This document shows, piece after piece, positions 39,575 through 61,046 of a stretch of 64,000 nucleotides of DNA (position 1 is its first letter; each line of letters starts with the position of its first letter). Origin of the DNA: Mycobacterium sp. 4858. Its GTDB lineage: Bacteria; Actinomycetota; Actinomycetes; Mycobacteriales; Mycobacteriaceae. Under the pieces are notes generated by a model. The model was not told the DNA's origin, did not search any database, and was given only the letters and a program-made list of their open reading frames with translations. Location of the stretch: NCBI RefSeq assembly GCF_900240975.1, contig NZ_LT968775.1:124001-188000 (forward strand). The letters are read 5' to 3'. The position numbers were made by a program, and so were the translations under genes.

Positions 39575-39606
39575 ATACAGTAGGCAATACGATTGATACG
39601 CTGTAT
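39575..39606. promoter_or_regulatory. Putative TetR operator: ATACAG-N20-CTGTAT
   Basis: ATACAG at 39575-39580 and CTGTAT at 39601-39606 are inverted and frame an AT-rich stretch between the divergent crotonase and thioesterase genes. The left side contains TACAGTA, the heptamer also found at 42220, 44713 and 61028. The right side, ACGCTGTAT, recurs in front of tetR at 42106. Confidence 0.55.
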
Positions 39607-39673
39607 AAGTTAGCAGGGTACGCCGCCGCCGGAAATAGCCGGGCCGGAACCCGAGCGAAGAAAAGGGGGACGC

Positions 39674-40381
39674 ATGGCCTTGCAGGAGGGGCGAGCGGGG
39701 GGCTGCGCCGAACCCGAGTCAACGCGATCGGGTGACGCCCGATTCGGCGAGCGGCCACTCTCCCAGACCGTGGCGGCCGCCGGCGCCATGCGGCGCCTGA
39801 GCTCACTGCTGCTGGCCCTCGAACATCCCCATCCCACCGTCGACACCATGGTGGAGAAGTTCGCCGAATGGGAGAGCGAACTCTCTGCCGCTGCGCCGGT
39901 GGACAACGCGCCGCGAATCGGCGACGTCCCCGATGATCCCCGGCGCGTCTATCTCGACCATGCGACCGACATCGGCGCCTACAATCCGTGCTTCCCGGAG
40001 TATCGGTTCGATCACCTCGATGCCGACGAGGCAACGGGGCGAGTCAACTTCCCGCTCGTCTACGAGGGCCCGCCGGGATGCGTGCACGGTGGCTTTCTGG
40101 GCGTCTTCTTCGACTGCGTCATCCAGCACCACAATTGCGTCACGGGCCTGTCCGGCAAGACGCGATCACTGGTCGTGACGTTCCGACGACCGACACCGGT
40201 GTTGACCGCGCTACGGTTCGACATCGTCCGATCGCAGGTCGAACGCGGCATCGCATCGACGGCACGGCTGCTACTCCACGGCGAAGTGCTCTGCACCGGC
40301 CAGGTGAACACCTTGGCGTCACCGCCTGAGAGGCTGGCCGGGTTCAAATTCGGCAGGCGGCGAAAGGAATCCGACACATGA
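39674..40381 (+). CDS. Hotdog-fold acyl-CoA thioesterase
   Basis: A 235-residue protein with a 90-residue N-terminal extension before a 4HBT hotdog core: GRVNFPLVYEGPPGCVHGGFLGVFFDCVIQHHN holds the conserved HGG and helix. It follows with SLVVTFRRPTPV. It likely hydrolyses an acyl-CoA to release CoA, perhaps to relieve a dead-end intermediate. ATG after AAAAGGGGGACGC. It overlaps the next crotonase by ATGA. Its promoter region is shared with the leftward operon. Confidence 0.82.
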   Translation: MALQEGRAGGCAEPESTRSGDARFGERPLSQTVAAAGAMRRLSSLLLALEHPHPTVDTMVEKFAEWESELSAAAPVDNAPRIGDVPDDPRRVYLDHATDIGAYNPCFPEYRFDHLDADEATGRVNFPLVYEGPPGCVHGGFLGVFFDCVIQHHNCVTGLSGKTRSLVVTFRRPTPVLTALRFDIVRSQVERGIASTARLLLHGEVLCTGQVNTLASPPERLAGFKFGRRRKESDT

Positions 40382-41271
40382 CGCCCCGGAGCGCATCGGA
40401 CGATCGCGTGCTGTTCGAGATGGACCCCGACCGCCGCATCGCCACGATCACGCTGAACAATCCGGCGCACCGCAACTCCTACGACGCCGTCATGCGCGAC
40501 GCCATCGCCCGCTGTCTGGATCGGGTGGCCGACGACGACGACCTGACGGTGGTGCTGTTGCGCGGCGCGGGCGGCGTCTTCTCCACCGGGGCCGACATGA
40601 ACAACGCCTATGGCTGGTATGGCGAAACGACCACGCCCGGCGACGCGTCGGGCAAGCGCCGTCCCAGTCAACGTCGGCGACTTACCGTGGACCGTAAGTC
40701 TTTTGGCTTCTACCACAACTTCATGGGCTTTCCCAAGGTGACGGTGGGCGAGATCACCGGATATGCGCTGGGCGGCGGTTTCGAGATGGCGCTGATGACC
40801 GACATCTCCGTGATAGCGCGCGACACGAAGGTCGGCATGCCGGCCACCCGCTTCCTCGGCCCCGCGCTCGGCAGCCTGCACATGTTCTTCCACCGGTTGG
40901 GTCCGGTGCTGGCCCGGCGCCTGCTGCTGACCGGCGACATCATCGAGGCCGGCGAGCTCGAACATCTCGGGATCTTCACCGACACCTGCGATTCCGCCGC
41001 CGTCCCGGCGCGGGCGCGGTACTGGGCCGAGAAGGCGGCGAAGATGCCCGCCGACGGGGTGGTCATCGCCAAGGAGGCTTTCCGCCTCGTCGAGCAGAGC
41101 CAGGCATACCAGGGTGAGGAAGTCGCGAGCTATCTCTTCCACGCCTTCGGCACCAACCTGCAATTCGGGCCAGGAGAGTTCAACTTCGTCAAGGCCCGCG
41201 CACAGCATGGGACCAAGGAAGCGTTCCGGCTCCGTGACGAACACTTCGACGTGCCGGAACCCGAAGTGTAG
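40378..41271 (+). CDS. Crotonase-fold protein (enoyl-CoA hydratase family)
   Basis: A 297-residue crotonase. It keeps the first hydratase glutamate in ALGGGFEMALMTDISV but has MPATRFLGPALG where the second is expected. The oxyanion segment is GVFSTGADMNNAYGW, followed by an insertion rich in Arg and Lys (TPGDASGKRRPSQRRRLTVDRK) before the next core strand. The one-Glu arrangement occurs in crotonases that are not classic hydratases. Co-translated with the thioesterase and convergent with tetR, 20 bases away. Confidence 0.82.
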   Translation: MTPRSASDDRVLFEMDPDRRIATITLNNPAHRNSYDAVMRDAIARCLDRVADDDDLTVVLLRGAGGVFSTGADMNNAYGWYGETTTPGDASGKRRPSQRRRLTVDRKSFGFYHNFMGFPKVTVGEITGYALGGGFEMALMTDISVIARDTKVGMPATRFLGPALGSLHMFFHRLGPVLARRLLLTGDIIEAGELEHLGIFTDTCDSAAVPARARYWAEKAAKMPADGVVIAKEAFRLVEQSQAYQGEEVASYLFHAFGTNLQFGPGEFNFVKARAQHGTKEAFRLRDEHFDVPEPEV

Positions 41272-41291
41272 TAACCCTATTCGGTATCCGG

Positions 41292-42089
41292 CTAGCGCGC
41301 GGCCGGGGCCTTGGTGCGTGCGCGTGACGCGGGCGACTTGGCCGCCTTGCGTGGCCGTGACGGCGCGGCCTTGCCGCCTTTCGGCCCCTTGCCTTCTTCG
41401 ATCAACCGGCCGGCGTGATCCAGGATGCAGCCGAGTCCGTACTCGAAGTTGGTTTCGTCGGGTGCGCCGATCCGGTGCCCGATGCGGCTGACTTGGGCCA
41501 GCAGGGGAGTCTTCTCGGGGTCGATGGCGACGGCGTCCTCGATGGCACGCGCACCCTCATGGGAGGATTGGTTCTTCTCGTAAAGCCGCTGCAGCACCAC
41601 CGAGCCGCGGACGTGCACCGAAACCGCCGAGTAGGTGTCGAAGGCGTCCTCCGGCGACAGCCCGGCTTCGACCAGGTTGGCGATGGCCTTCTCCATCTCC
41701 TCGGCACCCAGCCGTGCCGCCTTCGGGCTGAGCGCGGCGCGGATCAGAATCAGGTCGCACAGAATTGGGTTACCCATGAACGTTTTACGCATCAGGCGCG
41801 CGTGGTTGGCCAATGTCTCGCGCCAGTCGCTGGCCTCGACGTAGGGGGTGGCGAACCGATACTTGCTCAATGCGCGGTCGGTCATCGCGTTGAGCAGGTC
41901 ATCCTTCTTACGGAAGTACCAGTAGATGCTCGTGACGCCGACGCCCAGATGTTTGCCAAGCAGCGGCATGCTCAAGTTGTCGATCGATACCTGCTCCGCG
42001 AGTTCGAATGCGCCACTGATGATGTCATCGGGATTGATGGATCCGCGTTCGCGGCGTTGACGCCTATCGGCGGTAGCCTGCTTTGCCAC
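41292..42089 (-). CDS. TetR family regulator of the CoA catabolic cluster
   Basis: A 265-residue TetR repressor. The helix-turn-helix lies in about 20-65 with LSMPLLGKHLGVGVTSIYWYFRKKDDLLNAM. The C-terminal ligand domain is longer than usual and ends in a 30-residue tail rich in Lys, Arg, Ala and Pro (GKAAPSRPRKAAKSPASRA), which may add DNA contacts. I chose GTG 42089 because GGAGG lies eight bases upstream; ATG 42104 is an alternative. It sits in the middle of the cluster and its own upstream region has the repeated operator elements, so it is the likely local regulator. Confidence 0.88.
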   Translation of the reverse strand: MAKQATADRRQRRERGSINPDDIISGAFELAEQVSIDNLSMPLLGKHLGVGVTSIYWYFRKKDDLLNAMTDRALSKYRFATPYVEASDWRETLANHARLMRKTFMGNPILCDLILIRAALSPKAARLGAEEMEKAIANLVEAGLSPEDAFDTYSAVSVHVRGSVVLQRLYEKNQSSHEGARAIEDAVAIDPEKTPLLAQVSRIGHRIGAPDETNFEYGLGCILDHAGRLIEEGKGPKGGKAAPSRPRKAAKSPASRARTKAPAAR

Positions 42090-42105
42090 TACGGGCACCT
42101 CCATC

Positions 42106-42114
42106 ACGCTGTAT
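42106..42114. promoter_or_regulatory. ACGCTGTAT element in the tetR promoter
   Basis: Nine bases identical to the right arm of the operator at 39598-39606, on the same strand, 17 bases upstream of the chosen tetR start. It may allow autoregulation. The match is short and could be chance on its own. Confidence 0.35.
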
Positions 42115-42219
42115 CCTGTGCATGCGGTCCAAGAGCCGTACCGACTCACCTGCGCAAGCTTAGCCGTGTCGCCGCTCGACGATGTCCGTCAACCCGGCTT
42201 TCGTGCACTTTTCATCTGC

Positions 42220-42258
42220 TACTGTAATACCTATCGTAGGCGTTTTGGTAACGATAGG
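42220..42258. promoter_or_regulatory. Putative TetR operator TACTGTAATACCTATCG and inverted CGATAGG
   Basis: TACTGTAATACCTATCG (42220-42236) repeats, with one base inserted, the reverse complement of the element at 44713-44728. CCTATCG at 42230-42236 is mirrored by CGATAGG at 42252-42258, giving 7-base arms with a 15-base spacer. It lies between divergent tetR and the SDR gene, 68 bases before the SDR start. Confidence 0.65.
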
Positions 42259-42325
42259 CCGGGCGGGCGAACATGACCGGGCGCAAGCCATTCACCCAGT
42301 CATCCGATGAGCCACGGGAATTGCC

Positions 42326-43123
42326 ATGGATTTAGGGCTGGCGGATGCCGCAACGGTGGTAGTCGGCGGTAGCCGCGGCATGGGTTTGGCCACGGCCCGC
42401 TGCCTCGCCGACGAAGGTGCCCGGGTCGCGGTGATCGGCCGCAGTCGTGACGCGCTCGACTGCGCCGCGGCGGAGTTGACGGGGCGCGGTAGCCCCGACG
42501 CCGTCGGGCTCGTCGCGGACATTGCCGATCCCGGTCAGGTCGACGAGGCGTTCGCCGAACTCGGCCGGCGATGGGGCGGAGAACTCAATGCCCTTGTCAA
42601 TACGGTCGGGCCGGGAGCGGCGGGCACGTTCGACGATTTGGCCGACGAGCAATGGCGCCAGGCCGTCGAAGACGGGGTGATGGGCATGGTGCGCTGTGTC
42701 CGCGCGGCACTTCCGCTGCTGCGCAAGGCGCAATGGGCGCGGATCGTCAACTTCTCGGCCCACTCGACCCAGCGGCAGAGCGTCATGCTGCCCGCCTACA
42801 CGGCGGCCAAGTCGATGCTGACCAGCGTGTCCAAGAATCTGTCTCTGTTCTTGGCCAAGGACGAGATCTTGGTCAACGTGGTGTCGCCCGGCAGCATCGC
42901 GTCCGAGTCGCTCGTCGGTTGGGCGAAATCGGTGGGCGTCGACGGCGGCGATCTTTACGCGTTGATGGACGCCATCGACAAGCACTTCGGCCATCCGGCC
43001 CACATGCCACGGGCGGGGCTGCCGGAGGAAATCGGGCCGGTGGCCGCATTCCTCGCGTCGCGGCGCAACTCCTACATGACGGGGGCCAACATCAACGTCG
43101 ACGGTGGTTCGGACTTCACCTGA
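42326..43123 (+). CDS. SDR family oxidoreductase
   Basis: A 265-residue classical SDR with TVVVGGSRGMGLATARCLADEGARVAVIGRS, VNTVGPGAAGTFDD (in the place of NNAG), NFSAHSTQRQSVMLPAYTAAKSM with Ser-Tyr-Lys, and a C-terminal YMTGANINVDGGSDFT. It probably oxidises or reduces a hydroxy- or keto-acyl intermediate. ATG after GGGAA. Divergent from tetR and 41 bases before the DapA-like gene, probably co-transcribed with it. Confidence 0.88.
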   Translation: MDLGLADAATVVVGGSRGMGLATARCLADEGARVAVIGRSRDALDCAAAELTGRGSPDAVGLVADIADPGQVDEAFAELGRRWGGELNALVNTVGPGAAGTFDDLADEQWRQAVEDGVMGMVRCVRAALPLLRKAQWARIVNFSAHSTQRQSVMLPAYTAAKSMLTSVSKNLSLFLAKDEILVNVVSPGSIASESLVGWAKSVGVDGGDLYALMDAIDKHFGHPAHMPRAGLPEEIGPVAAFLASRRNSYMTGANINVDGGSDFT

Positions 43124-43164
43124 CCGCCCGGAACGAAAAGCTCGGCCGAAAGAAGGAGTCGAAA

Positions 43165-44172
43165 GTGGCGACGGCAAGCGAGGCCCGCGCCTGGGCGCGC
43201 GGCGCATTGCGCGGAATCGGTGACTCGCTCTACACCCCGTTCTGCGGGCCGGACGGCGACGACATCGACTGGGAGGCCTATCGGACGCTGGTCCGTTACT
43301 GCGTCGGCGACCTCGGGCACCCGATGTTGTGGTGCACCAGCGGTCTCTCGGAGTTCTGGTCGCTGACCATCGATGAGCGAAAACGCTTGTTAGAGGTAGC
43401 GATTGAGGAAGGGCGTGCCGTCAATCCCGACGTCGTCGTGCAAGCCTGCACGGCCGCCATCGCCGCGAAGGACTGTCTGGAGTTGACGTTGCACGCCCAG
43501 GAAGCCGGCGCCGACATCGTCTACATCCAAACGCCGATGATGGAAGTGCATGGCGGCGAGGGCGTTCTGCGATTCTTCAAATACATCGCCTCGCGCACCG
43601 ACATCGCCTTGGGCATGTTCAACTCGCCGTCGTCCGGCTACGTGCTGACCGCCGCCGAAAGCGCGCGGATCTACGATGAGGTGCCCGCCGTGTGCGCGAC
43701 CAAGGAGGGCGCCTTCAGGCCGGCCAGCAGCCGGATGCTCCACCAGCTGGCGCCCGGCCTGGTGCTCTGGGAGTGTGACAAGACGGTGTATCGCGCCGGT
43801 TGGCTGCGCGACGGGATCGTCTGTCCGGCGCAACTGGGCACCGCGGGCTATCTGTTCGAGACGCCGCGGCGGCGATTGTTCTCGGAATACTGGGATTTGG
43901 TACAAAGCGACAAGCTGCTCGAGGCGATGGACTTCGGCCGCGAGTCGGGCCTGGACCAATTCGACCTCGACGTCGGATCCTGGTGGACGTGCTATCCGGG
44001 ACGGGCCGATTACTTCACTCACTGGGGTGGCGCGTTCAAGTACGCCGCCTCGCTTCTCGGCTTGCCGATAGGCGCGTATCCGCATTCCCGGCCACCGCAG
44101 GCGGAGTTGCCGACGGAGGCCAAGTCGCAGATCGAGAACGCATACCGCCGGCTTGGGCTCATCGAGGCCTAA
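43165..44172 (+). CDS. DapA (dihydrodipicolinate synthase) family lyase or aldolase
   Basis: A 335-residue TIM-barrel protein of the DapA/N-acetylneuraminate lyase family, longer than the usual 290-300. The Schiff-base lysine is in AVCATKEGAFRP. The YNxP motif that gives the proton-relay Tyr in DapA is here FNSPSSGY, so the Tyr is Phe. The GxxGE motif is replaced by WCTSGLSEFW. It is therefore not a lysine-pathway DapA and may be an aldolase or hydratase-aldolase acting on a keto acid made from the cluster's substrate. GTG start after AAGGAG. It follows the SDR gene. Confidence 0.75.
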   Translation: MATASEARAWARGALRGIGDSLYTPFCGPDGDDIDWEAYRTLVRYCVGDLGHPMLWCTSGLSEFWSLTIDERKRLLEVAIEEGRAVNPDVVVQACTAAIAAKDCLELTLHAQEAGADIVYIQTPMMEVHGGEGVLRFFKYIASRTDIALGMFNSPSSGYVLTAAESARIYDEVPAVCATKEGAFRPASSRMLHQLAPGLVLWECDKTVYRAGWLRDGIVCPAQLGTAGYLFETPRRRLFSEYWDLVQSDKLLEAMDFGRESGLDQFDLDVGSWWTCYPGRADYFTHWGGAFKYAASLLGLPIGAYPHSRPPQAELPTEAKSQIENAYRRLGLIEA

Positions 44173-44239: not shown

Positions 44240-44253
44240 CTGTGCCTAACCGT

Positions 44254-44490: not shown

Positions 44491-44782
44491 TGCGTTTCCC
44501 CTCCCGGTAGTGGGTATCTGTGTTGGCTTTCCCTTTTCGCCGCCAGGAGGAAACGCGATCGGCGCGTGGTGCTCGCCACACCCGGGATATCCGTGCCACT
44601 CCTGGTCATGAGTAGCCCCGTCGACGGCGGTCAGGGGTGAGGTTCAGCAAGCCGAAATCCCCTGTTCGGCCGGGGTTCGTGGGCACCCGAAGGCGGTTGT
44701 GGAAAACGGTACCGATAGGTATACAGTATGCGTACAAATCGTCGCGGGATCGGGTAGCGGTCGTGAGGAGGTGGCGGGGGAG
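44491..44782. other. 292-base intergenic region with hairpin and operator
   Basis: This gap between divergent csbD-like and crotonase genes holds an inverted repeat, GCCGAA at 44651-44656 with TTCGGC at 44665-44670 around ATCCCCTG, and the operator-like element at 44713-44728. The first part up to about 44640 shows no feature I can support. Confidence 0.5.
44713..44728. promoter_or_regulatory. Putative TetR operator CGATAGGTATACAGTA
   Basis: Its reverse complement, TACTGTATACCTATCG, equals the element at 42220-42236 apart from one missing A. It lies 55 bases before the start of the crotonase that heads the rightward operon of 44.8-51.7 kb, within an AT-rich probable promoter. Confidence 0.65.
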
Positions 44783-45625
44783 ATGTCCGGCGGGGACGAC
44801 GCTTCCGAGGCCGCAGTGCTCTACGAGTCCACCGGCAGCGGCGTGGCGATTCTGACCTTCAACCGTCCTGAACGCCTGAACGCCTGGGGGCCGGACATTG
44901 CCGCCGGCTTTTACTCGGCGATCGACCGCGCCGAACAGGACCCGGCCATCCGGGTGGTCGTGCTGACCGGCCGGGGCAAAGGATTCTGCGCCGGCGCGTA
45001 TCTGGGCACGCCGAATTCCGCACCGAGTTACGGCGACACGATGGAGAAGGCGAGTCAGACCAACCTCGCCGAGTTGGTCGGGGAACGGCCGCCGCATTTC
45101 GTGACCACGCTGCGCAAGCCCGTCGTGGCCGCCATCAACGGCGCCTGCGTCGGCATCGGCCTGACCCAGGCGCTCATGTGTGACGTGCGGTTCGCGGCCG
45201 CCGGGGCCAAGTTCGCCGCGGTCTTCGCCCGCCGCGGACTGATCGCCGAGTTCGGCATCTCCTGGATACTGCCGCGACTGACAACCTGGGGCGTCGCCCT
45301 GGATCTGCTGTTGAGCGGCCGCACCTTCCTCGCCGAGGAGGCGGCCGACCTCGGCCTCGTCAAGGACGTGGTCGCGCCCGAGGATCTGATGAACCGCGCG
45401 CTGGAATACGCGGAGGACATCGCACGCAACTGCTCGCCGGCGTCCATGGAAGTGATCAAGCGGCAGGTATACGGTGACGCCACTCGCGATGTCGTGGACG
45501 CCACGGCGCGTGCCGAGGTGCTGCTGCACGAGGCGATGCCGCGGCCGGACGTCATCGAAGGCATCACCAGCTTTCTGGAGAAGCGGCCCCCCCGATTCCC
45601 TTCGCTCGACCCGACCGACGCTTAG
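44783..45625 (+). CDS. Crotonase-fold protein, altered active site
   Basis: A 280-residue crotonase with VAILTFNRPERLNAWGPDI, GKGFCAGAYLGT and NGACVGIGLTQALMCDVRFAAAGAKFAAVFARRGLIAEFGISWILPRL. The first hydratase Glu is Thr (GIGLTQAL); no Glu is at the second position, although the RGLIAEFG loop has one nearby, as in many mycobacterial EchA paralogues. ATG behind a GGAGG...GGGGGAG stretch. It leads an operon with amidohydrolase, ligase, amidohydrolase and two acyl-CoA dehydrogenase subunits. Confidence 0.85.
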   Translation: MSGGDDASEAAVLYESTGSGVAILTFNRPERLNAWGPDIAAGFYSAIDRAEQDPAIRVVVLTGRGKGFCAGAYLGTPNSAPSYGDTMEKASQTNLAELVGERPPHFVTTLRKPVVAAINGACVGIGLTQALMCDVRFAAAGAKFAAVFARRGLIAEFGISWILPRLTTWGVALDLLLSGRTFLAEEAADLGLVKDVVAPEDLMNRALEYAEDIARNCSPASMEVIKRQVYGDATRDVVDATARAEVLLHEAMPRPDVIEGITSFLEKRPPRFPSLDPTDA

Positions 45626-45655
45626 TGTTCGCCGGTGATGCCGGAAAGGATGATC

Positions 45656-46858
45656 ATGACCAGCTTGGGTTATAAGGCGATTGACGTCGACAACCACTAC
45701 TACGAACCACTGGACGCCTTCACCCGCCACCTGGACAAGAAGTTCAAGCGGCGAGGCGTGCAGATGCTCAACGACGGCAAGCGCACCTGGGCCGTGATCG
45801 GGGATCGGGTCAACCACTTCATCCCCAACCCGACCTTTGACCCGATCATCGTGCCGGGCTGCCTGGACCTGTTGTTCCGCGGCGAAATCCCCGACGGCGT
45901 CGACCCCGCCTCGCTGATGAAGGTCGAGCGGCTGGCCAGCCACCCCGAGTACCAGAACCGCGACGCGCGGGTCGCGGTGATGGAGACCCAGGACGTCGAA
46001 ACGGTGTTCATGCTGCCGACTTTCGCGTGCGGCGTCGAGGAGGCGCTCAAGGGAGACATCGAGGCCACGATGGCCTCGCTGCACGCGTTCAACCTGTGGC
46101 TCGACGAAGATTGGGGCTTCGACCGGCCCGATCACCGCATCATCGCCGCGCCCATCATTTCGCTGGCAGACCCGGCCAAGGCGCTCGAAGAGGTCGAGTT
46201 CGTGCTGGCGCGCGGCGCCAAGCTGGTGCTGGTGCGGCCCGCGCCGGTGCCCGGTGTGGTGAAGCCGAGATCGCTGGGCGATCCCAGCCACGACCCGGTG
46301 TGGGCCCGGCTCGCCGAGGCGGGGGTGCCGGTCGGCTTCCACCTCAGCGACAGCGGCTATCTGCACATCGCCGCGCAGTGGGGCGGCAAGGCGACCTTCG
46401 AGGGGTTCGGGGAAAAGGACCCACTGGATCAGGTTCTCCTGGACGACCGCGCCATCCACGACACGATGGCCTCGATGATCGTGCACGGTGTGTTCACCCG
46501 CCACCCCGGGCTCAGGGCGGTCAGCATCGAAAACGGCTCCTATTTCGTGCATCGGCTGATCAAGCGGCTGAAGAAGGTCGCCAACAACTACCCGCGGCAT
46601 TTCCCCGAGGACCCGGTGGAGCAATTGCGCAACAATGTGTGGATCGCCCCCTACTACGAGGACGATTTGCAAGAGCTGGCCAACGTCATCGGCATCGACA
46701 AGATCCTGTTCGGGTCCGACTGGCCGCACGGCGAAGGCCTCGAGACGCCGGTGTCGTTCGCCGGGGAACTCAACGGCTTCGGCGAAGCCGATGCCCGAAA
46801 AGTGATGCGCGACAATGCTCTCGACCTGCTCGGCGTTCCGGTCCCGTCGGCCGTTTAG
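45656..46858 (+). CDS. Amidohydrolase family 2 protein (ACMSD-like metal hydrolase/decarboxylase)
   Basis: A 400-residue TIM-barrel amidohydrolase-2 protein. It has IDVDNHYYEPLDAF in the first strand (the usual DxHxH has Asn between, DNHYYEP), VGFHLSDSGYL with a histidine ligand, MIVHGVFTRHPGLRAVSIENG and ILFGSDWPHGEGL with the conserved Asp. Such proteins decarboxylate or hydrolyse cyclic and aromatic acids with a metal ion. Start at ATG 45656 behind GGAAAGG; upstream in-frame starts at 45635 and 45638 are less likely. Substrate unknown. Confidence 0.82.
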   Translation: MTSLGYKAIDVDNHYYEPLDAFTRHLDKKFKRRGVQMLNDGKRTWAVIGDRVNHFIPNPTFDPIIVPGCLDLLFRGEIPDGVDPASLMKVERLASHPEYQNRDARVAVMETQDVETVFMLPTFACGVEEALKGDIEATMASLHAFNLWLDEDWGFDRPDHRIIAAPIISLADPAKALEEVEFVLARGAKLVLVRPAPVPGVVKPRSLGDPSHDPVWARLAEAGVPVGFHLSDSGYLHIAAQWGGKATFEGFGEKDPLDQVLLDDRAIHDTMASMIVHGVFTRHPGLRAVSIENGSYFVHRLIKRLKKVANNYPRHFPEDPVEQLRNNVWIAPYYEDDLQELANVIGIDKILFGSDWPHGEGLETPVSFAGELNGFGEADARKVMRDNALDLLGVPVPSAV

Positions 46859-46867: not shown

Positions 46868-48523
46868 ATGAGTGAATGGACTGTGGGCGCGGTTCTGGAC
46901 GCCATCGCCGACGCCGTGCCGGACCGGCTGATGACCGTCTGCGGCGACCGCAAGAGCACCTTCGCCGACTCCGCGGTCCGCACCAACCGGTTGGCGAACT
47001 ACCTCGAAGGCAGGGGTTTCGGCGTCTACGCGACCCGTGACGCGCTGCAGCGCTGGGAATGTGGACAGGACCGCATCGCGTTGCTGATGTACAACGACCT
47101 GTACCCGGACATGGTCGTCGGCTGCCTGAAGGCGCGCACCGTCCCGGTCAACGTGAACCACCACTACTCGCCCCGGGAAATCCGCGACCTGCTCGACTAC
47201 GTCCGCCCACGGGGGATCATCTACCACCGCTCCCTCGGCGCCCGGTTCGCCGACGTCCTGCCGCCGATCGGTACCGAGTTGCTGATCTCCATCGAGGACG
47301 GCAGTACGGTTCCACAACTGCCGAAGGCGATCTCGCTCGACGACGCCCTGGCGTCCGTCGGCCCCGATCGCGAGGAGACCGGATCTCCGGACGATCTCAT
47401 CATGATGTGCACCGGCGGGACGACGGGGCGTCCGAAGGGCGTGCTGTGGCGACAGAGCGACATGTACGTGTCGTCGATGGTCGGGGCCGATCATGCCAGC
47501 GTCACGGAGATTCACGACAAGGTCGCCGCGGGCGGCCAGCCGTGGTTCGCCGTCTCCCCGCTCATGCACGCCGCCGGCATGTGGACCGCGTTCTCCGCGC
47601 TCTGCGCCGGCCTGCCCGTAGTGCTTTACGACGACAGCAACAGGCTGGACGTCCGGTCGGTGTGGGAAACCGCGGAGCGCGAGAAGGTGGGCATGATGAC
47701 CATGGTGGGCGACGCGTACGCCGGCCCGCTGATCGCCGAGCTGCGCGCGCGTTCCTATGACCTGTCCTCGCTGCGTGCGATCGGCACCGGAGGCGCCGCG
47801 ACGAACGCGAAACACAAACGCGCACTGATGGAATGCCTGCCACACATCACCATCATCGAGGGCTATGGGTCGTCGGAGAGCGGCAACATGGCGTTCGGGC
47901 ACAGCCGCGGGGGGACCGCCAGCGAAACCTTCCAACCCAGGGAGGGGGCCAGCGTGGTGTCGGCCGACCGCAGCCGATTTCTGCGGCCCGGTGAGCGGGA
48001 AGTCGGCTGGGCCGCCAGGACAGGCCGCATCCCGCTCGGGTATTTCGGTGACGCCGAGGCCACGCAACGGACCTTCCCCGAGATCGACGGCCGGCGGGTG
48101 GTGATACCCGGCGACCGGGCATCGCTGGAGAGGGACGGCACCATCCGCCTGCTGGGCCGCGACTCGCTGGTCGTGAACACCGGTGGCGAAAAGGTTTTCG
48201 TCGAAGAGGTCGAAGAGGTACTGCGCGCTCAGCCGGGCGTCGCCGATGCCCTGGTCGTCGGCCGACCAAGCGAGCGGTGGGGTCAAGAGGTCGTCGCGCT
48301 CATCGCCATGCAACCCGGCGCCCGGCTCACCCCGGACGGCCTCTACCACGCGTGCACGGCACAACTGGCGCATTTCAAGGCGCCGAAGGCCGTCATCTTC
48401 GTCGAGCAGATCGAACGCCTCGGCAACGGCAAGCCCAACTACCGATGGGCCAGAGAACAAGCCACTCAACACCCTCCGGTGAGCGCGCTGGTAGGGTCCG
48501 ACGCCGAAGGAAGTCATGAATGA
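46868..48523 (+). CDS. Long-chain acyl-CoA synthetase-type ligase (FadD19/17-like architecture)
   Basis: A 551-residue FadD protein. The P-loop is IMMCTGGTTGRPKGVLWRQSD, with the GGTTG form typical of steroid-side-chain-like FadDs. Further motifs are SPLMHAAGMWTAF, IIEGYGSSESGNMAF, YAIPGD-like RRVVIPGDRASLERDGTIRLLGRDSLVVNTGGEKVFVEEVEEVL, and the C-terminal LGNGKPNYRWAREQA lysine. It resembles the ligase at 61072-62724. It lies ten bases after the amidohydrolase and overlaps the second amidohydrolase by eight. Substrate unknown. Confidence 0.87.
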   Translation: MSEWTVGAVLDAIADAVPDRLMTVCGDRKSTFADSAVRTNRLANYLEGRGFGVYATRDALQRWECGQDRIALLMYNDLYPDMVVGCLKARTVPVNVNHHYSPREIRDLLDYVRPRGIIYHRSLGARFADVLPPIGTELLISIEDGSTVPQLPKAISLDDALASVGPDREETGSPDDLIMMCTGGTTGRPKGVLWRQSDMYVSSMVGADHASVTEIHDKVAAGGQPWFAVSPLMHAAGMWTAFSALCAGLPVVLYDDSNRLDVRSVWETAEREKVGMMTMVGDAYAGPLIAELRARSYDLSSLRAIGTGGAATNAKHKRALMECLPHITIIEGYGSSESGNMAFGHSRGGTASETFQPREGASVVSADRSRFLRPGEREVGWAARTGRIPLGYFGDAEATQRTFPEIDGRRVVIPGDRASLERDGTIRLLGRDSLVVNTGGEKVFVEEVEEVLRAQPGVADALVVGRPSERWGQEVVALIAMQPGARLTPDGLYHACTAQLAHFKAPKAVIFVEQIERLGNGKPNYRWAREQATQHPPVSALVGSDAEGSHE

Positions 48524-49346
48524 CAAAGTGATTGACTGCCTGGTGAACGTCCACTTCGGCGAAGCCGAATCTCAGCCGACGTGGATGCTCAAGGTCAGGG
48601 ACGACTACTTCAAGGGCCCCGAGTCGATGTTCGCCCCGGTCGATCTCTCCGAATTGCTCGCCGAGATGGACGAACAAGGTGTGCACAAGGCGATCCTGAT
48701 GGACTCGCTCACCAACCCGTCCACCACCGCGCGCAAATTCGCCGAAGCCAAACCGGATCGATTCGCCTTGGCCGAGGGCGGGGTCAACCTGCTGCGCCCG
48801 GTGCCGTCGCTGCGCAAGCTCGCCGAGATCGCGGGCGACCTGCCCGTCGCGTATGCCGTAGTGGGGCCGAGCTTTTGGGGCGACGGCCAATACCCGCCCA
48901 GCGACGCCGTGTACTACCCGCTCTATGCCAAATGTGCGGAACTGGACCTTCCGCTGTGCATCAACACCGGCATCCCGGGGCCGCCCATACCCGGCGAGGT
49001 CCAGCACCCCATGCACCTGGATCGCGTGTGCGTACGATTCCCCGAACTGCGGCTGTGCATGATTCACGGCGCCGACCCGTGGTGGGACGTCGCGATCCGC
49101 TTGCTGCTGAAGTACCCGAACCTGCGCCTCATGACGTCGGCGTGGTCGCCCAAGCGGCTGCCGGAGAGCCTGCTGCACTACATGCGCACGCGCGGTCGCA
49201 ACAAGGTGATCTACGCGTCCGACTGGCCGGTGTTGCCCATGCGGCGGGTCATCCCCGAGGCCCGTGCCCTTGATCTGCCGGCCGACGTGCTGGATAACTA
49301 CCTTTACAACAACGCGCAGGATTTTTTCTTCGGCGACCGCGCCTGA
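48516..49346 (+). CDS. Amidohydrolase family 2 protein (second)
   Basis: A 276-residue amidohydrolase-2 protein. It starts MNDKVIDCLVNVHFGEAES, where the usual first-strand DxHxH metal motif is reduced to DCLVNVHFGE. Further core segments are LCINTGIPGPP, LRLCMIHGADPWW (histidine) and NKVIYASDWPVLPM (Asp). The C-terminus ends LDNYLYNNAQDFFFG, the family signature. The weaker metal motif may mean a different metal use. It could form a complex with the first amidohydrolase. Overlaps the ligase by eight bases. Confidence 0.8.
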   Translation: MNDKVIDCLVNVHFGEAESQPTWMLKVRDDYFKGPESMFAPVDLSELLAEMDEQGVHKAILMDSLTNPSTTARKFAEAKPDRFALAEGGVNLLRPVPSLRKLAEIAGDLPVAYAVVGPSFWGDGQYPPSDAVYYPLYAKCAELDLPLCINTGIPGPPIPGEVQHPMHLDRVCVRFPELRLCMIHGADPWWDVAIRLLLKYPNLRLMTSAWSPKRLPESLLHYMRTRGRNKVIYASDWPVLPMRRVIPEARALDLPADVLDNYLYNNAQDFFFGDRA

Positions 49347-49367: not shown

Positions 49368-50426
49368 ATGGACCGCTTCGAACTACGCCGACTGGACTAC
49401 AGCCTGTCCGACGATCATGTGGCCCTGCGGGACGCCTATAAGCAGTTCTTCAAGACGCACTGCTCCATCGAAACCGTCCGTGCCGCAGAGCCGTCGGGTT
49501 TCGACAAGAACCTGTGGGAGAGGTTGTGTGGGATGGGCGCGACCACGATGGCGTTGCCGGAGTCCTGCGGCGGTGACGGCGCGACCCTGGTCGACCTCAC
49601 CCTGGTGGCCGAGGAGGTCGGCCGGACGCTGGCACCGGTTCCGTGGATCGACCACGTCTGCACCGCACGGCTGCTGGGGCGGCTCGGCGCGCTGGGCGAG
49701 GCTGCCGCCGGGATCGCGGACGGGGAACAGCTTGCCGCGCTGGACCCGCGCATCGACGCCGGGCGCGGCCCGCGGTTGATTCCGTCGGGGTCGATCGCTG
49801 ACCACGTCGTCGTCCGCGAAGGCGAGGAAGTCGTGCGCCTGACCTTCGCCACCCGCCCGGCGAAGGTCGACAATATCGGCCGCCTGCCCATGGCCTGGGT
49901 GGACCCCGCGGTGGCCGACACGCGCGAGGTCATCGCCGAGGGGCCCGATGCACTGGCGAGTTACCTTTTGGCGCTGGACGAATGGCGGCTGCTGACCGCG
50001 GCGGCGCTCGTCGGGCTGGTGGAGGAGACCATGACCATCGCCGCTGAGTTCGCCAAGACCCGATACACGCTGGGTGTGCCCATCTCCACGCTGCAGGCCA
50101 TCTCCCACCCGCTGGCAAATATGGCCATCACCGTCCAGGGTGGCCGCAACCTGGCTCGCCGCGCCGCCTGGTTCCTGGACAATGAACCCGGCGAGCGGCC
50201 CGAATTGGCGCCTTCCGCTTTTGTTTTCATGGCCGAGGAGGCGGCGAGGGCGGCGACCATGGCGGTCCATATTCAAGGCGGCCTCGGGGTTTCGGCCGAG
50301 GCCGCGGCGACGGCGTATCTGGTGCGCGCCCGCGGGTGGCCACTGGCTGGCGGCGATCCGGCGGCTACGTCCCAACGGGTGGCCGAGATCGTGGCCGCCC
50401 GCGAGAGCGCGGCGCAGCCGGCGTAG
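49368..50426 (+). CDS. Acyl-CoA dehydrogenase-like subunit without catalytic Glu motif
   Basis: A 352-residue acyl-CoA dehydrogenase paralogue, shorter than the usual 380-400. It lacks the catalytic-base motif: where EGTSEI is expected it has WPLAGGDPAATS. It also lacks the EPGSGSD FAD loop (AALDPRIDAGRGPRL), but keeps the helical ends (LERLCGMGATTMALPESCGGDGATLVDLTLVAEEVG and HIQGGLGVSAEA). Such proteins form hetero-oligomers with a full partner, as in the ChsE/FadE28-29 type. The partner is probably the next gene, 14 bases downstream. Confidence 0.85.
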   Translation: MDRFELRRLDYSLSDDHVALRDAYKQFFKTHCSIETVRAAEPSGFDKNLWERLCGMGATTMALPESCGGDGATLVDLTLVAEEVGRTLAPVPWIDHVCTARLLGRLGALGEAAAGIADGEQLAALDPRIDAGRGPRLIPSGSIADHVVVREGEEVVRLTFATRPAKVDNIGRLPMAWVDPAVADTREVIAEGPDALASYLLALDEWRLLTAAALVGLVEETMTIAAEFAKTRYTLGVPISTLQAISHPLANMAITVQGGRNLARRAAWFLDNEPGERPELAPSAFVFMAEEAARAATMAVHIQGGLGVSAEAAATAYLVRARGWPLAGGDPAATSQRVAEIVAARESAAQPA

Positions 50427-50440: not shown

Positions 50441-51658
50441 ATGGATTTCTCCCGCGTCGAGCTGTCCGAAGCCGACGAGGCATTCCGCGACGAAGCGCGC
50501 AGCTTTCTGGCCACGCACATGACCGAAGAGGTCAGGCGCCGCGACAGGGAAACCGGCGACAACTTCGACGAGGGCCTGCACCTGAAGTTCGGCGCCGCAG
50601 GCTATTTGGCGGCGGAATGGAAACCGGAGTCCGACGGTGGTCTCAGCCGGGTGCGGCGGCGCATCTGGGAGTTGGAGAAGCGGCGGGCACATGTGCCGTG
50701 GGTGACGTGGGGGACAACCGCGATGGTGGCCCGCTCGGTGGACAAGTTCGGGTCACCGCAACTGCGTGAGGAGGTGCTCCCGAAAGTCTTCAGCGGCGAG
50801 GTTCGGTTGTGCCTCGGCTACACCGAGCCCGAAGGCGGCTCCGATGTCGCCACCTGTAAGACCCGCGCGGTACGGGAGGCGGTTGGATCGAGCTGGGTCA
50901 TCAATGGCTCCAAGATGTTCACCACCGGCGCCCATAACTGCCAATACGTCTTCCTGATCACCAATACCGACCCGGACGCGCCGAAACACAAGAGCCTGAC
51001 CATGTTCCTGGTGCCGCTGGATTCGCCCGGCATCGAAATCCAGGGTATCCGCACGGTGGATGGCGATCGGACCAACATCGTCTATTACAGCGACGTCCGC
51101 GTGGACGACAAATACCGGCTGGGCGAGGTGAACGGGGGCTGGACGGTGCTGCGCGAACCGCTCAACGTCGAGCACGGCGCCGTCGCCGCCGCCCCGGACG
51201 GTCTGCAGGATACGTCAATCATGATGCACCAGGCCAGTTTTCTGTCCGAGGCGGTGGACAAGGCGGCGGCCTGCGTGGCGCGCACGGACGGCGAGGGCCG
51301 CCGACTCATCGAAGACAAGTCGGTCGCGTATCGACTGGGCCGCAGCGTTGCCCGACTGGAGGTGGCGCTGGCCACCCCGAGCGTTTTCGGCCGGGTGGCC
51401 ATCGCACAAACGATGCGCGACATCTCCCCGGAACTGATGGACATCCTCGGCGCCGCGTCCGCGTTGCCGTACGGAGCCGAGGCGGCCGCCGACGACGGCA
51501 GCGCCGAATACGCCTACCGGTTCGCCCCACTGGTGGGCATCTATGGCGGAACACTGGAGGTCTTCCGCAACATGATCGCCCAGTACACCCTCGGGCTGGG
51601 CAAGCCCGCGTACGCGCCGCCGGTCAAGAAGGTGTCTTCGATCAGCGCGAACGGGTAA
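50441..51658 (+). CDS. Acyl-CoA dehydrogenase, full partner subunit
   Basis: A 405-residue acyl-CoA dehydrogenase. It has the FAD loop CLGYTEPEGGSDVATCKTRA, the middle segment WVINGSKMFTTGAHNCQYVFL, RVDDKYRLGEVNGGW and the C-terminal VGIYGGTLEVFRNMIAQYTLGLGKPAY. The base before GT is Gly here, so another Glu may act, as in steroid-type FadEs. ATG after AGGAAGGGGC. With the preceding subunit it should make an alpha2beta2 enzyme. It ends the operon. Confidence 0.87.
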   Translation: MDFSRVELSEADEAFRDEARSFLATHMTEEVRRRDRETGDNFDEGLHLKFGAAGYLAAEWKPESDGGLSRVRRRIWELEKRRAHVPWVTWGTTAMVARSVDKFGSPQLREEVLPKVFSGEVRLCLGYTEPEGGSDVATCKTRAVREAVGSSWVINGSKMFTTGAHNCQYVFLITNTDPDAPKHKSLTMFLVPLDSPGIEIQGIRTVDGDRTNIVYYSDVRVDDKYRLGEVNGGWTVLREPLNVEHGAVAAAPDGLQDTSIMMHQASFLSEAVDKAAACVARTDGEGRRLIEDKSVAYRLGRSVARLEVALATPSVFGRVAIAQTMRDISPELMDILGAASALPYGAEAAADDGSAEYAYRFAPLVGIYGGTLEVFRNMIAQYTLGLGKPAYAPPVKKVSSISANG

Positions 51659-57312: not shown

Positions 57313-57481
57313 TGTTGCTCCTTATCCCGTGCGCCGGCATCGCCGCACGACATGGTTGCCGCGTGGGAACGCCGGGCGCTCCGAGGCCAGATTGCGCCCC
57401 GCGGTGACGCGTTCCTAGGGCCGATGGACTCTATGGCCGGGGCATATGCGCACCGAAGAAAAAATCGGGCGCATATCGCGG

Positions 57482-57505: not shown

Positions 57506-57514
57506 GTACATGGC

Positions 57515-57895
57515 ATGACGGAACACAACCACTACCAACAGGTGCTGGACGACCTCAACCCCCAGCACCGCGCCCTGCGCAAGATGATCCCGGACGTGTA
57601 CCGGGGTTTTGCCGAAATGAGCAACGGCGCACTGACCTCGGGCGCCTTGGACAAGAAGTTCAAGGAGCTGATCGCGATGGCGATCGGGGTCGTTGCCGGA
57701 TGCGACGGCTGCATCGCCTCCCACGCTCAGGGGGCGGCCCGTGCCGGAGCATCCAAGGAAGAGGCCGCCGAGGCCATCGGCGTCAGCATTCTCATGCATG
57801 GTGGCCCGGCGACGATCTACGGGGCACGCGCCTACAGCGCATTTTGCGAATTCGCCGACAAGATCGCGGACGACGCCGCCGGGCCGGCCCAATGA
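57515..57895 (+). CDS. AhpD-like (carboxymuconolactone decarboxylase family) redox protein
   Basis: A 126-residue all-helical protein with the AhpD catalytic signature AGCDGCIASHAQGAARAG, Cys63-x2-Cys66 and His70. Family members reduce peroxides or shuttle thiol electrons. The ATG of MTEHNHYQQVL is only ten bases from the palindrome, so the leader is very short. It is followed by thioredoxin 52 bases on. Its association with the SQR-like gene suggests handling of persulfide or peroxide. Confidence 0.85.
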   Translation: MTEHNHYQQVLDDLNPQHRALRKMIPDVYRGFAEMSNGALTSGALDKKFKELIAMAIGVVAGCDGCIASHAQGAARAGASKEEAAEAIGVSILMHGGPATIYGARAYSAFCEFADKIADDAAGPAQ

Positions 57896-57947
57896 GCGGC
57901 GACCGCCGCCTCGGCCCGATCCTCACCATCATCCGAAAGGAGCAACC

Positions 57948-58322
57948 ATGACCGTCAAGACGCTGACCGCCGCCGATTTCGAGTCGACCGTAGTCGCAAA
58001 CCCGATTGTGCTCGTTGACTTCTGGGCCCCTTGGTGTGGGCCATGCCGGGCTTTCGCGCCGGTCTTCGACCGGTCCTCGCAGAACCACCCGGAGATCGTG
58101 CACGCCAAGGTGGACACCGACACCGAGCGCGATCTGGCCGCGACGGTAGGCATCCGCTCGGTGCCGACGATCATGGCGTTCCGCGACGGCATCCTCATTT
58201 ACAGTCAGCCGGGCGCGATGTCACCAGCCGTGCTCGACGACTTGATCGATCAGGTCAAGGGTCTTGACATGGAAAAGGTCCACGCCAAGATCGCCGAGCG
58301 TAAAGCTGCTGTGAGGGCGTAG
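57948..58322 (+). CDS. Thioredoxin
   Basis: A 124-residue thioredoxin with WAPWCGPCRAFAP (Cys30, Cys33), VDTDTERDLAATVGIRSVPTIMAFRDG and the cis-Pro in SVPT. A 17-residue C-terminal extension (KVHAKIAERKAAV) exceeds the usual length of about 108. ATG after AAAGGAGCAACC. It reduces disulfides, perhaps of the AhpD-like or flavoprotein partners. It is followed by the zinc-ribbon gene, 38 bases on. Confidence 0.9.
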   Translation: MTVKTLTAADFESTVVANPIVLVDFWAPWCGPCRAFAPVFDRSSQNHPEIVHAKVDTDTERDLAATVGIRSVPTIMAFRDGILIYSQPGAMSPAVLDDLIDQVKGLDMEKVHAKIAERKAAVRA

Positions 58323-58360
58323 TGGCGCACTCGCTTCGCCCTGGACGATAGGAAGCAACC

Positions 58361-58492
58361 ATGTGTTACCCCGTTCGCTGCCGGCGCTGCGGAAAGATCA
58401 CCTGGGCGGGGTGTGGCGCGCACGCCGAGAGCGTGATGAAGCAGGTGCCGATCGATCAACGATGCACCTGCGGCCAGAGCATCGCTAGGTAA
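58361..58492 (+). CDS. 43-residue zinc-ribbon protein
   Basis: A very short protein, MCYPVRCRRCGKITWAGCG, continuing HAESVMKQVPIDQRCTCGQS. Six cysteines (2, 7, 10, 18, 35, 37) and His21 fit one or two zinc or thiolate sites. The AGGAAGCAACC before the ATG repeats the spacing of the thioredoxin site. I recall similar short proteins in actinobacteria (W-A-G-C-G-x-H core), without a known function. It probably shares the redox-island transcript. Confidence 0.72.
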   Translation: MCYPVRCRRCGKITWAGCGAHAESVMKQVPIDQRCTCGQSIAR

Positions 58493-58532
58493 TGCCGCCG
58501 ATGATCGCCACGTCAGTCATGGCATGGCGCAT

Positions 58533-59762
58533 TCACGCAATGGCTCCCGAGTCCTTCAGTTCCTCGATGCGGTCCCAATCCATGCCCAGTTCCATCAGCA
58601 CGAGCTCGGTGTGCTCGGAGGCCTGGGGCGCACGCGTGGTCACCAGGGGTTCGTGGTTGAACTGCACCGGACCGCGCACGACGCGGAAAGGCTTTCCGCC
58701 GCTGGCGAGCTCGACCTCGCTGACCATGTCGTTGGCCAGGGCCTGCTCGTCGTCGACCAGGTCGAGCAAGCTCTGGAACGGCGCCCACTGGCCCTTCATC
58801 GTCTTCAGGTGTTGCCGCCAATAGTCGAAGGACTTGCCGGCGAAGGCCTTTGCGATCAGTTCGGCGGCCGCGTTGGCATTCTGTATCAGCGGGAGCACGT
58901 CGGAAAAGCGGGGATCATCAGCCGCCTCGGGAATGCCGAGATGCTCGAAAGTGTCGCGGATCAATCCGGTCGGGCTGATGATGCACAGGTTGATGGTGCC
59001 GCCGTCGGAGGTTTCGTAGTTGCCCATGAAGGGGTTCACCGACATCGCGGTGGCGGAGCCCGGCATGGGAGTGCGCATCACCTGTCCGGTCTCCATGCCC
59101 TGCGTCACGCTCGCTCCCGCGGCCCACCAGGCCGTGCTCAACAACGACACGTCGAGCTCGAGGGCTTCGCCGGTGCGCTCGCGATGCAGCAACGCGGCCG
59201 AGATGCCGCCGGCGATGAACATGCCGCCGATGGAGTCGCCGAATGCCGGAATGCCTTGCCCCAGTGCGCCACCCAGCTCCTCGGGCGTCAGCGCGTATCC
59301 GATGCCACTGCGCGTCCAGAATGCCGTCCCGTCATAGCCGCCCGTGTCACGTTCGGCGCCCTTGTCGCCGTAGGCCGATCCGCGCGCGTACACGATGTTC
59401 GGGTTCACCGCGCGGATGTGCTCCACGTCGAACTTGTGCTTCTGGCGCTGCGCCGGCATGTAGTTGGTGAGGAACACGTCGGCGGTCTTGGCCAGTTCGT
59501 AGATCACCTCCTGGCCACCCGGCGTGGAGACGTCGATTCCGACACTGCGCTTGCCCCGGTTGGGATGCTCCATCAGCGGATGCCGCTCCGGATCGATCTG
59601 GATGCCGCCCATGTTGAGGAAGCCGCGTTGGGTATCACCGCGCAGCGGGTGTTCGACCTTGATGACGTCGGCGCCCCAATCGGCCAGGATGGCGCCCGCC
59701 GCCGGGACGAACGTGAATTGCGCAAGTTCCAGGACCCGGAAGCCCGACATCACTTTGACCAT
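58533..59762 (-). CDS. CaiB/BaiF (family III) CoA transferase
   Basis: A 409-residue family III CoA transferase with FRVLELAQFTFVPAAGAILADWGADVIKVEHPLRGD, NRGKRSVGIDVSTPGGQEV, and LGQGIPAFGDSIGGMFIAGGISAALLHRERTG containing the catalytic aspartate. It lies ten bases after the P450 on the same strand. Together the pair may load CoA onto an oxidised acid and act in the TACTGTA regulon. ATG 59762; a second ATG at codon 5 is possible. Confidence 0.88.
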   Translation of the reverse strand: MVKVMSGFRVLELAQFTFVPAAGAILADWGADVIKVEHPLRGDTQRGFLNMGGIQIDPERHPLMEHPNRGKRSVGIDVSTPGGQEVIYELAKTADVFLTNYMPAQRQKHKFDVEHIRAVNPNIVYARGSAYGDKGAERDTGGYDGTAFWTRSGIGYALTPEELGGALGQGIPAFGDSIGGMFIAGGISAALLHRERTGEALELDVSLLSTAWWAAGASVTQGMETGQVMRTPMPGSATAMSVNPFMGNYETSDGGTINLCIISPTGLIRDTFEHLGIPEAADDPRFSDVLPLIQNANAAAELIAKAFAGKSFDYWRQHLKTMKGQWAPFQSLLDLVDDEQALANDMVSEVELASGGKPFRVVRGPVQFNHEPLVTTRAPQASEHTELVLMELGMDWDRIEELKDSGAIA

Positions 59763-59771
59763 TTTCGGACC

Positions 59772-60974
59772 CTACTTCGCGTCGAACGTCACGGGAAGCG
59801 CCGTCGGAGAACGGAAGGGCTGGCCGTGGATGTGGGGGTCGTCGTCGGTGAGCAACCGGACATTGGTCACCCGATCCAGCAGGCATTCGACCGCGACGCG
59901 GGTCTCCAGCCGCGCCAGGTGCAGGCCCAGACACGTGTGCTCGCCGGCGGCGAAGGAGATGTGCGGCAGGTGCGTGCGGAAGATGTCGAATTCCTCGGCG
60001 TCCTGCCAGCGCCGCTCGTCGCGGTTCGCGGAGCCGATGCACACCCCGACCACCGAACGCGCCGGGATCTCGACGCCTTCGAGATCGGTGTCCTCGGTGG
60101 TGAATCGCTGGACCGTCGTCAGCGGCGTCTCGAAGCGCACGCCCTCCTCGATGGCCTGCGGCAAGAGCGCGCGGTCGGCCTGTACCGCGGCGAACTGGTC
60201 CGGGTGGGTGAGCAGCAGGTACAGCAGGTTGCCCGATGACCGGTACGTGGTCTCCAGCCCGGCCGGCAACAGCAGCCGCAGGAAGGAGTAAATCGCTTCC
60301 TCGCTTAGCCTTTCACCGTCGATCTCCGCCGTGACCAGGTCGCCGATGATGTCCTCGGTGGGGCGGGACTTGCGCAGTGCGATCTGCTCCAGGAAGTAGT
60401 CCTTGAGCGCCGCCGAGGCCTCGAAGGCATGCTCGTAGTCGACGTGGTAGCTGATCAGCTGCACGGCGCGCTTACGGAACGTCGGCAGGTCGTCGGCGGG
60501 CAAGCCCAGCAGCCGGGCGATGACACGGGTGGGGAATTCGAAGGTGAATTGCCGGACCAGGTCGGCTTCGCCGGTGCCGGCGAACTCGTCGATCAGGGCG
60601 TTGCAGATCGGCCGCACGATGGTGTTCTCCCACCGGGCCAGCGCCTTGGACTTGAATGCGGCGGACACCAGGTTGCGGTGGTCGCGATGCTTCTTTCCCT
60701 CCATCGCCAGGATGGTCGGCCCCATGAACAGGCCGATCGTCTTGTCGTATGGCGCGGAGCTGAACACCCGGCCGTCCCGAAAGACCTTGTTCACCGCATC
60801 GAACGAAACCGCGGAGAACTCGCGCTTGGGGATCAACGACTCGGGCGTCTTGGAGTAGTCCATGACCGTCCCGCGGAACACCCCGGATTCGCGGCGCTTT
60901 CGCGCGAAGAACGGGTAGGGGTCGCGCAGGCTGACGGTCTGGCCATTGGCTGCCGCATGCACGTCGGTGGTCAC
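59772..60974 (-). CDS. Cytochrome P450
   Basis: A 400-residue bacterial P450. The heme loop is SFAAGEHTCLGLHLAR with ligand Cys348, the I-helix is LLPAGLETTYRSSGN, and the EGVRFETPL segment carries ExxR. It needs ferredoxin partners, and none is next to it. I cannot name the CYP family; the context suggests hydroxylation of a lipid, terpenoid or steroid-like substrate. The palindrome TACTGTAA-TTC-TTACAGTA lies 54-72 bases before its ATG. Confidence 0.93.
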   Translation of the reverse strand: MTTDVHAAANGQTVSLRDPYPFFARKRRESGVFRGTVMDYSKTPESLIPKREFSAVSFDAVNKVFRDGRVFSSAPYDKTIGLFMGPTILAMEGKKHRDHRNLVSAAFKSKALARWENTIVRPICNALIDEFAGTGEADLVRQFTFEFPTRVIARLLGLPADDLPTFRKRAVQLISYHVDYEHAFEASAALKDYFLEQIALRKSRPTEDIIGDLVTAEIDGERLSEEAIYSFLRLLLPAGLETTYRSSGNLLYLLLTHPDQFAAVQADRALLPQAIEEGVRFETPLTTVQRFTTEDTDLEGVEIPARSVVGVCIGSANRDERRWQDAEEFDIFRTHLPHISFAAGEHTCLGLHLARLETRVAVECLLDRVTNVRLLTDDDPHIHGQPFRSPTALPVTFDAK

Positions 60975-61027
60975 CCTAGATCTCCAGCATCGTCAGCGGG
61001 AACGGCAAGGCGCCTTGCGCAAGATCA

Positions 61028-61046
61028 TACTGTAATTCTTACAGTA
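61028..61046. promoter_or_regulatory. Perfect palindrome TACTGTAATTCTTACAGTA
   Basis: Inverted repeat with 8-base arms and a 3-base centre in the P450 promoter, the full-length form of the TACTGTA element found at 39.6, 42.2 and 44.7 kb. It fits a TetR dimer site. It lies downstream of the 61072-62724 ligase end, so it most likely acts on the P450-CoA transferase pair. Confidence 0.68.

Follow-up and report, generated by a model that had tools for sequence, protein, structure and literature searches.

A TetR-family regulator gene and a recurring 19-bp palindrome lie together in a catabolic gene cluster of Mycobacterium sp. 4858, and one TetR protein very probably controls the neighbouring oxygenase and coenzyme A (CoA)-enzyme operons jointly through this palindrome. 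The stretch analysed (the window) comprises 64,000 nucleotides, C7:124001-188000 of a 5.61-Mb genome; coordinates without a prefix are window positions, while those prefixed C7: or C8: are contig positions. The regulator gene, here tetR, is at 41292-42104. As is characteristic of an autoregulated regulon, a conserved palindromic operator resides in the promoter of tetR itself, and the same operator precedes other operons and is kept in relatives.

A first-pass annotation of this DNA had proposed a TetR regulon of CoA-linked operons from five copies of TACTGTA or its complement TACAGTA. All five positions proved exact (39576 on the minus strand, 42220 plus, 44722 minus, 61028 plus and 61040 minus), compared with 0.33 copies expected in the window, and none of 100 shuffles gave five. 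Genome-wide, TACTGTA is present in 23 copies in 5.61 Mb, seven of which lie between C7:163576 and 193320 (~30 kb), a cluster with a Poisson probability of ~6e-12 given the density elsewhere in the genome. Aligning the copies revealed each TACTGTA to be one half of a 19-bp palindrome, TACTGTA-N5-TACAGTA, with sites in the window at 39564-39582, 42220-42238, 44710-44728 and 61028-61046. We scored sites by the letters matched out of the 14 half-site letters in the 19-mer, with a threshold of at least 11/14. By this measure 61028-61046 is a perfect palindrome (14/14), where both annotated copies are present as the halves of one operator rather than as two sites, and the other three (A, B and C below) match 11-12 of 14.

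The array extends past the window. Across a joined stretch of 92 kb (the window plus DNA beyond it, with rough gene calls), 19-mers scoring at least 11/14 occur at 10 places, whereas 20 shuffles averaged 0.2 such places and never gave more than 1; nine lie within the cluster, including an overlapping pair, and one (23205) is outside. Beyond the window are C7:188982-189000 with the overlapping 188994-189012, 193302-193320, 202649-202667 and a weaker site at 206372-206390. In this extended array tetR is near the left end, and not in the middle as annotated. The operators are as follows.

Operator A, 39564..39582, plus strand: 12/14, in the divergent gap between a crotonase gene and the open reading frame (ORF) at 39674
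Extra half-site of operator A, 39588-39594: forms an overlapping site, 39576-39594, of 10/14
Operator B, 42220..42238, plus strand: 12/14, in the divergent gap between tetR and an SDR gene
Operator C, 44710..44728, minus strand: 11/14, upstream of a crotonase-amidohydrolase-FadD-amidohydrolase-FadE-FadE operon
Operator D, 61028..61046, minus strand: 14/14 perfect palindrome, upstream of a P450-CoA transferase pair
Operator E, C7:188982/188994, past the window: between a KshA-like Rieske oxygenase group and an esterase/SnoaL-like/luciferase-family group
Operator F, C7:193302, past the window: flanked on one side by a carboxyltransferase gene and on the other by genes for a luciferase-family protein and a P450
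Operator G, C7:202649, past the window: between a P450 and a Rieske/two amidohydrolase-family/alpha/beta hydrolase group
Operator H, C7:206372, past the window: weaker site, target not settled

By the rough gene calls on the 92 kb, nine of the ten sites at or above threshold are intergenic, in keeping with the annotated placement beside catabolic operons. The tenth, 44710 (operator C), falls inside a mechanical ORF (44699-45625); because the homologous part of this ORF begins at residue 35, with the first ATG at 44783, this site too is likely upstream of its gene rather than coding. Within these 92 kb the palindrome sits in promoter gaps and is not equally common in coding DNA, the distribution that had been named as speaking against a regulon. 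A loose genome search allowing one mismatch returned 60 places compared with 86 for the reversed control, and loose forms of the motif are therefore uninformative alone, whereas strict forms and clustering are informative.

The operator is conserved well beyond this genome, as judged from counts over related, non-independent genomes. De novo palindromic expectation-maximisation, run with no prior on 65 non-redundant of 106 tetR upstream regions, returned TACTGTAnnnnnTACAGTA with a log-likelihood of 770, compared with 21-27 for three shuffled sets. The best 80 of 286 tetR relatives are named Mycobacterium loci, and 78 of these 80 carry a site of at least 11/14 no more than 300 bp upstream of tetR; L021 is without a site and L026 is without upstream DNA in the locus. 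Counted with the position fixed, sites equivalent to A and to C each occur in 69 of the 80 loci, with several misses being incomplete loci. For diverged tetR upstream regions, 24/28 score at least 11/14 (null 0.003), comprising 18/18 inside the genus and 6/10 outside. For P450-D (the cytochrome P450 downstream of operator D), the KshA-like gene and P450-G, we compared promoters from the best loci of 20 genomes, own genome included, among the 60 Mycobacterium genomes of a genus survey. The KshA-like promoters score at least 11/14 in 20/20 (null 0.006), and at P450-D the site is a perfect 14/14 in 17/20, with varying spacers. Over 16 of these P450-D promoters the half-sites hold 2.00 bits, the spacer 1.23 and the flank 0.57, the pattern expected if a dimer touches the DNA at two half-sites.

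In the genus survey we used a strict pattern, TACTGTAWNNNNWANCGTA, which demands more letters than the 14-letter score. It is present in 25/60 genomes, and its reversed control in 0/60. At E 1e-40, tetR is found in 47/60 genomes, two of these matches (G050 and G055) being just 42-43% identical. The strict pattern occurs in 25/47 genomes with tetR and 0/13 without (Fisher 3e-4, uncorrected for relatedness). The genes follow the same division: either P450-D or its 58% paralogue P450-G is present in 43/47 genomes with tetR and the KshA-like gene in 36/47, and both are in 0/13 without.

These distributions bear on another explanation, in which the operons would share TACTGTA as a -10 box, part of the core promoter, and not as a repressor site. 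The sequence TACTGT does match the -10-box shape TAnnnT, and the sites lie ~12-128 bp upstream of likely start codons. However, a -10 box needs no inverted second half 12 bp on, nor does it account for half-sites that are invariant at P450-D around a variable spacer, and a general element would neither put 7 of 23 genomic copies in 30 kb nor be missing where tetR is missing. We reject this explanation as having almost no probability.

The tetR product matches TetR_N (PF00440) with 45.7 bits against a cut-off of 24, placing it in the TetR/AcrR family. Its ORF is open to 42149, with most listed homologues at ~250-270 residues, fitting the ATG at 42104, and its nearest named relatives are from Mycobacterium scrofulaceum, M. 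europaeum and M. parascrofulaceum (95-96% identity). The helix-turn-helix segment V55-K67 (VGVTSIYWYFRKK), which is the recognition-helix stretch, is identical in 25/25 aligned relatives while overall identity falls to 41%, as expected were the operator unchanged. The protein likely binds TACTGTA-N5-TACAGTA, putatively as a dimer, with the copy upstream of tetR itself suggesting autoregulation.

A different regulator might instead bind the site, leaving the tetR product with other targets. One candidate is a second TetR inside the same cluster (C7:195835-196569; L001:9835-10572), which precedes genes for an ABC-2 transporter and an SDR; the other is a sister TetR, copies of which are in the cluster of several genomes and beside P450-D in seven. 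The second TetR is present in 9/60 genomes, own included, whereas a site at the promoter of tetR is present in 78/80 named loci, and we rejected it as too rare in the genus. The own genome contains no second copy of tetR at E 1e-8. Control by either protein is thus given a very slight probability, and the tetR product is retained as the predicted regulator.

Sister TetR proteins, 51-57% identical and encoded 17-22 kb from tetR, are found directly beside P450-D in G011, G020, G021, G034, G039, G040 and G049.

We propose that TetR would repress its own gene and at least six neighbouring gene groups by covering their promoters, and that a pathway metabolite, which may be the substrate itself or one of the acyl-CoA intermediates, would release it via the C-terminal domain. 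TetR proteins are described as often being repressors (PMC4482099). The operator could alternatively serve activation, given that some TetR-family proteins activate, such as FasR by its NCBIfam title. The short distance from the sites to likely start codons resembles that of KstR, for which an overlap of the operator with a putative -10 is reported (PMC1995591), and we regard activation as quite improbable, with repression the preferred mode.

Several observations weigh against the regulon as proposed. The motif is missing from 4/28 diverged tetR upstream regions, all outside the genus (L121, L123, L125 and L126), and two of the six extra-genus positives (L128 and L129) barely reach 11. M. lepraemurium (L021) is without a site at tetR though sites A and C are kept, and the strict pattern is missing from 22/47 genomes with tetR. 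P450-G promoters retain the site in just 8/20, and membership of P450-G in the regulon is therefore lineage-specific. At A, B and C, in named close relatives, the spacers carry 1.76-1.88 bits compared with 1.90-1.99 for half-sites and 0.61-1.00 for flanks, a spacer conservation that exceeds the need of a plain dimer site. The sister TetR may share, or have taken over, the P450-D operator in the seven genomes listed above.

At operators A, E and F an extra half-site is present 12 bp on (39564-39594, C7:188982-189012 and C7:193302-193332), forming two overlapping operators that share one half, and this layout is found as well in L037, L074, L091, L102 and L129. Averaged over 81 non-redundant sites, the third half-site scores 2.69 on one side and 1.63 on the other (background 1.40). 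By eye, the one-sided excess may stem mostly from the tetR/SDR site family, and it is treated as an observation and not as part of the mechanism. A candidate second copy of the 31-bp operator A layout (C7:635315-635345) was dropped, being inside a predicted gene.

The genes beside the operators within the window are listed below, with putative operon extents judged from spacing and strand.

34042..35883, minus: AMP-binding CoA ligase (Pfam), 5' end not settled
35636..37630, minus: AMP-binding CoA ligase (Pfam), 5' end not settled
37905..38717, minus: second crotonase (ECH_1, Pfam)
38727..39539, minus: crotonase (ECH_1, Pfam), first gene left of operator A, GTG start at 39539 estimated
39674..40381, plus: ORF right of operator A, without a Pfam match
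40378..41271, plus: crotonase (ECH_1, Pfam)
41292..42104, minus: tetR, 270 residues, TetR_N and TetR_C_1 (Pfam)
42326..43123, plus: SDR oxidoreductase (Pfam), right of operator B
43120..44172, plus: DHDPS (DapA-like) family protein (Pfam, PDB relatives), start estimated inside ORF 42571-44172
44783..45625, plus: enoyl-CoA hydratase, NCBIfam PRK06210.1 above cut-off
45635..46858, plus: amidohydrolase-family protein; best PDB match 4dzi (831 bits), then PtmU3 (56 bits)
46868..48523, plus: acyl-CoA synthetase, PRK07798.1 above cut-off
48516..49346, plus: amidohydrolase-family protein
49368..50426, plus: acyl-CoA dehydrogenase (Pfam)
50441..51658, plus: acyl-CoA dehydrogenase (Pfam), start estimated
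58533..59762, minus: CoA-transferase family III (Pfam)
59772..60974, minus: cytochrome P450 (P450-D; Pfam, PDB relatives), downstream of operator D
61072..62736, minus: AMP-binding CoA ligase (Pfam)

The last of these, the CoA ligase at 61072..62736, is likely the final gene of the KshA-like operon under operator E (C7:188982-189012), a group in which a thioesterase and a protein of isochorismatase type are encoded as well.

Operator-like sites were also seen away from the cluster. An isolated 19-mer (23205-23223, 11/14) lies in a gap well to the left. Three distal sites are possible outlying members of the regulon: C8:268163-268181 (L084), ahead of a crotonase whose start is unsettled; C8:3115327-3115345 (L087), 20 bp ahead of a P450; and C7:618631-618649 (L086), 46 bp ahead of a 4HBT_3 thioesterase. 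A site at C8:3639050 was dropped as the operator of a TetR gene, as it is 15 bp past the end of that gene and not upstream.

Among the enzymes of the proposed regulon, the oxygenase types are P450s, luciferase-family enzymes, a Rieske oxygenase resembling KshA and a dinuclear oxygenase predicted from its amidohydrolase relatives; the remainder are CoA ligases, crotonases, acyl-CoA dehydrogenases, a CoA transferase and a carboxyltransferase. This set predicts that a bulky alicyclic substrate, similar to a terpenoid or steroid, is first attacked with oxygen and then degraded through CoA-linked steps. Relatives of solved structure are no more than suggestive: the Rieske oxygenase is related to KshA, the operator F P450 is nearest to P450terp, P450-D is related to P450s of several kinds, and one luciferase-family protein is related to F420-dependent enzymes.

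Under operator G, C7:202702-206346 (L131:2702-6346) encodes a small Rieske protein, a degenerate amidohydrolase, an AibH2-like amidohydrolase and an alpha/beta hydrolase. The AibH2-like protein (C7:204089-205240) is closest to AibH2 and the dinuclear monooxygenases covered in PMC10811679. The dinuclear metal ligands of AibH2 are given as D25, H27, H211, E265, D337 and H340 (PMC7782822); all six are aligned in this protein, with its tandem partner having lost most metal ligands. The Rieske protein, of 119 residues, is encoded two genes upstream, and a gene arrangement with a small Rieske protein is described as the route by which the dinuclear oxygenase family was found (PMC10811679). The second-sphere residue Asp342 of AibH2, whose change is reported to lower activity (PMC10401708), is Ser in our protein. 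We predict that the operator G group encodes an amidohydrolase-related dinuclear oxygenase, a class characterised by oxygen-dependent C-H hydroxylation.

Among PDB entries, the amidohydrolase-family protein at 45635-46858 is related to a structural-genomics TIM-barrel protein (PDB 4dzi), which we take to be MAP2389c of M. avium paratuberculosis, and weakly to PtmU3 and DitZ. MAP2389c is listed merely as an amidohydrolase in PMC7192006. The letters of the six ligands are present (DNH at 19-21, then H, E, D and H), the first two being unaligned by either method, and this protein may be a second dinuclear oxygenase rather than a hydrolase.

It is conceivable, if somewhat short of probable, that these operons amount to a large and so far undescribed regulon for ring degradation, the third in mycobacteria alongside those of KstR and KstR2, with one TetR commanding all its oxygenases. 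If so, two paralogous P450s, a P450terp-like one, luciferase-family enzymes, the KshA-like Rieske oxygenase and a dinuclear metal oxygenase of AibH2 type would together serve to degrade a terpenoid- or steroid-like compound completely by a CoA-linked route, and the identity of the TetR ligand would reveal the compound. By 2015, the operator motif had been described for just a few mycobacterial regulators, and well-characterised TetR proteins were few (PMC4482099). The present evidence links this regulator to its operator and target operons by sequence genus-wide, and the ligand would point to the substrate of a large pathway. The operator G group would also put an AibH2-type oxygenase into a CoA-linked catabolic gene cluster; in 2023 the 555 members counted for this class were described as uncharacterized (PMC10401708). 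A literature search, which did not take in the logos in Table 2 of PMC4482099, returned no description of the cluster or regulon, nor of TACTGTA with TetR in Mycobacterium; an earlier prediction is possible.

The proposed system resembles several known ones. The operator G group shares with AibH1H2, SfbO and PtmU3 a small Rieske protein and tandem amidohydrolases, one with the six AibH2 ligands, and differs in the Asp342 to Ser change, a partner subunit that has lost most ligands, and predicted TetR control within a CoA pathway. The tetracycline repressor TetR (PRK13756) is the closest named model to the tetR product, which also has its PDB relatives there and a TetR_C_1 domain; however, the match is 77.3 bits against a cut-off of 265, and the neighbouring genes are SDR and crotonase genes. 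None of the named NCBIfam regulator cut-offs is passed by the tetR product, and it does not match the KstR family model at E 0.001. The published operators of KstR (TnnAACnnGTTnnA, 14 bp; PMC1995591) and KstR2 (AnCAAGnnCTTGnT, 14 bp; PMC3068626) are both absent from the window, the first-pass annotation having likewise named no match to either, and that of BkaR (GTTA(N)T(N4)A(N)TAAC; PMC3920632) is absent from it with up to one mismatch allowed. Like KstR and KstR2, the system pairs a TetR protein with a palindromic operator in its own promoter and with several CoA-linked operons of lipid or ring catabolism, but their operators are 14 bp rather than 19 bp and the gene set differs. BkaR, which governs the branched-chain keto-acid regulon, is likewise an autoregulated mycobacterial TetR repressor with its palindrome in its own and neighbouring promoters and two motifs within a single gap, though with another operator and other target genes. 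The autoregulated TetR regulon is a known type, and the member predicted here, large and well supported, would work like those of KstR, KstR2 and BkaR while being none of them.

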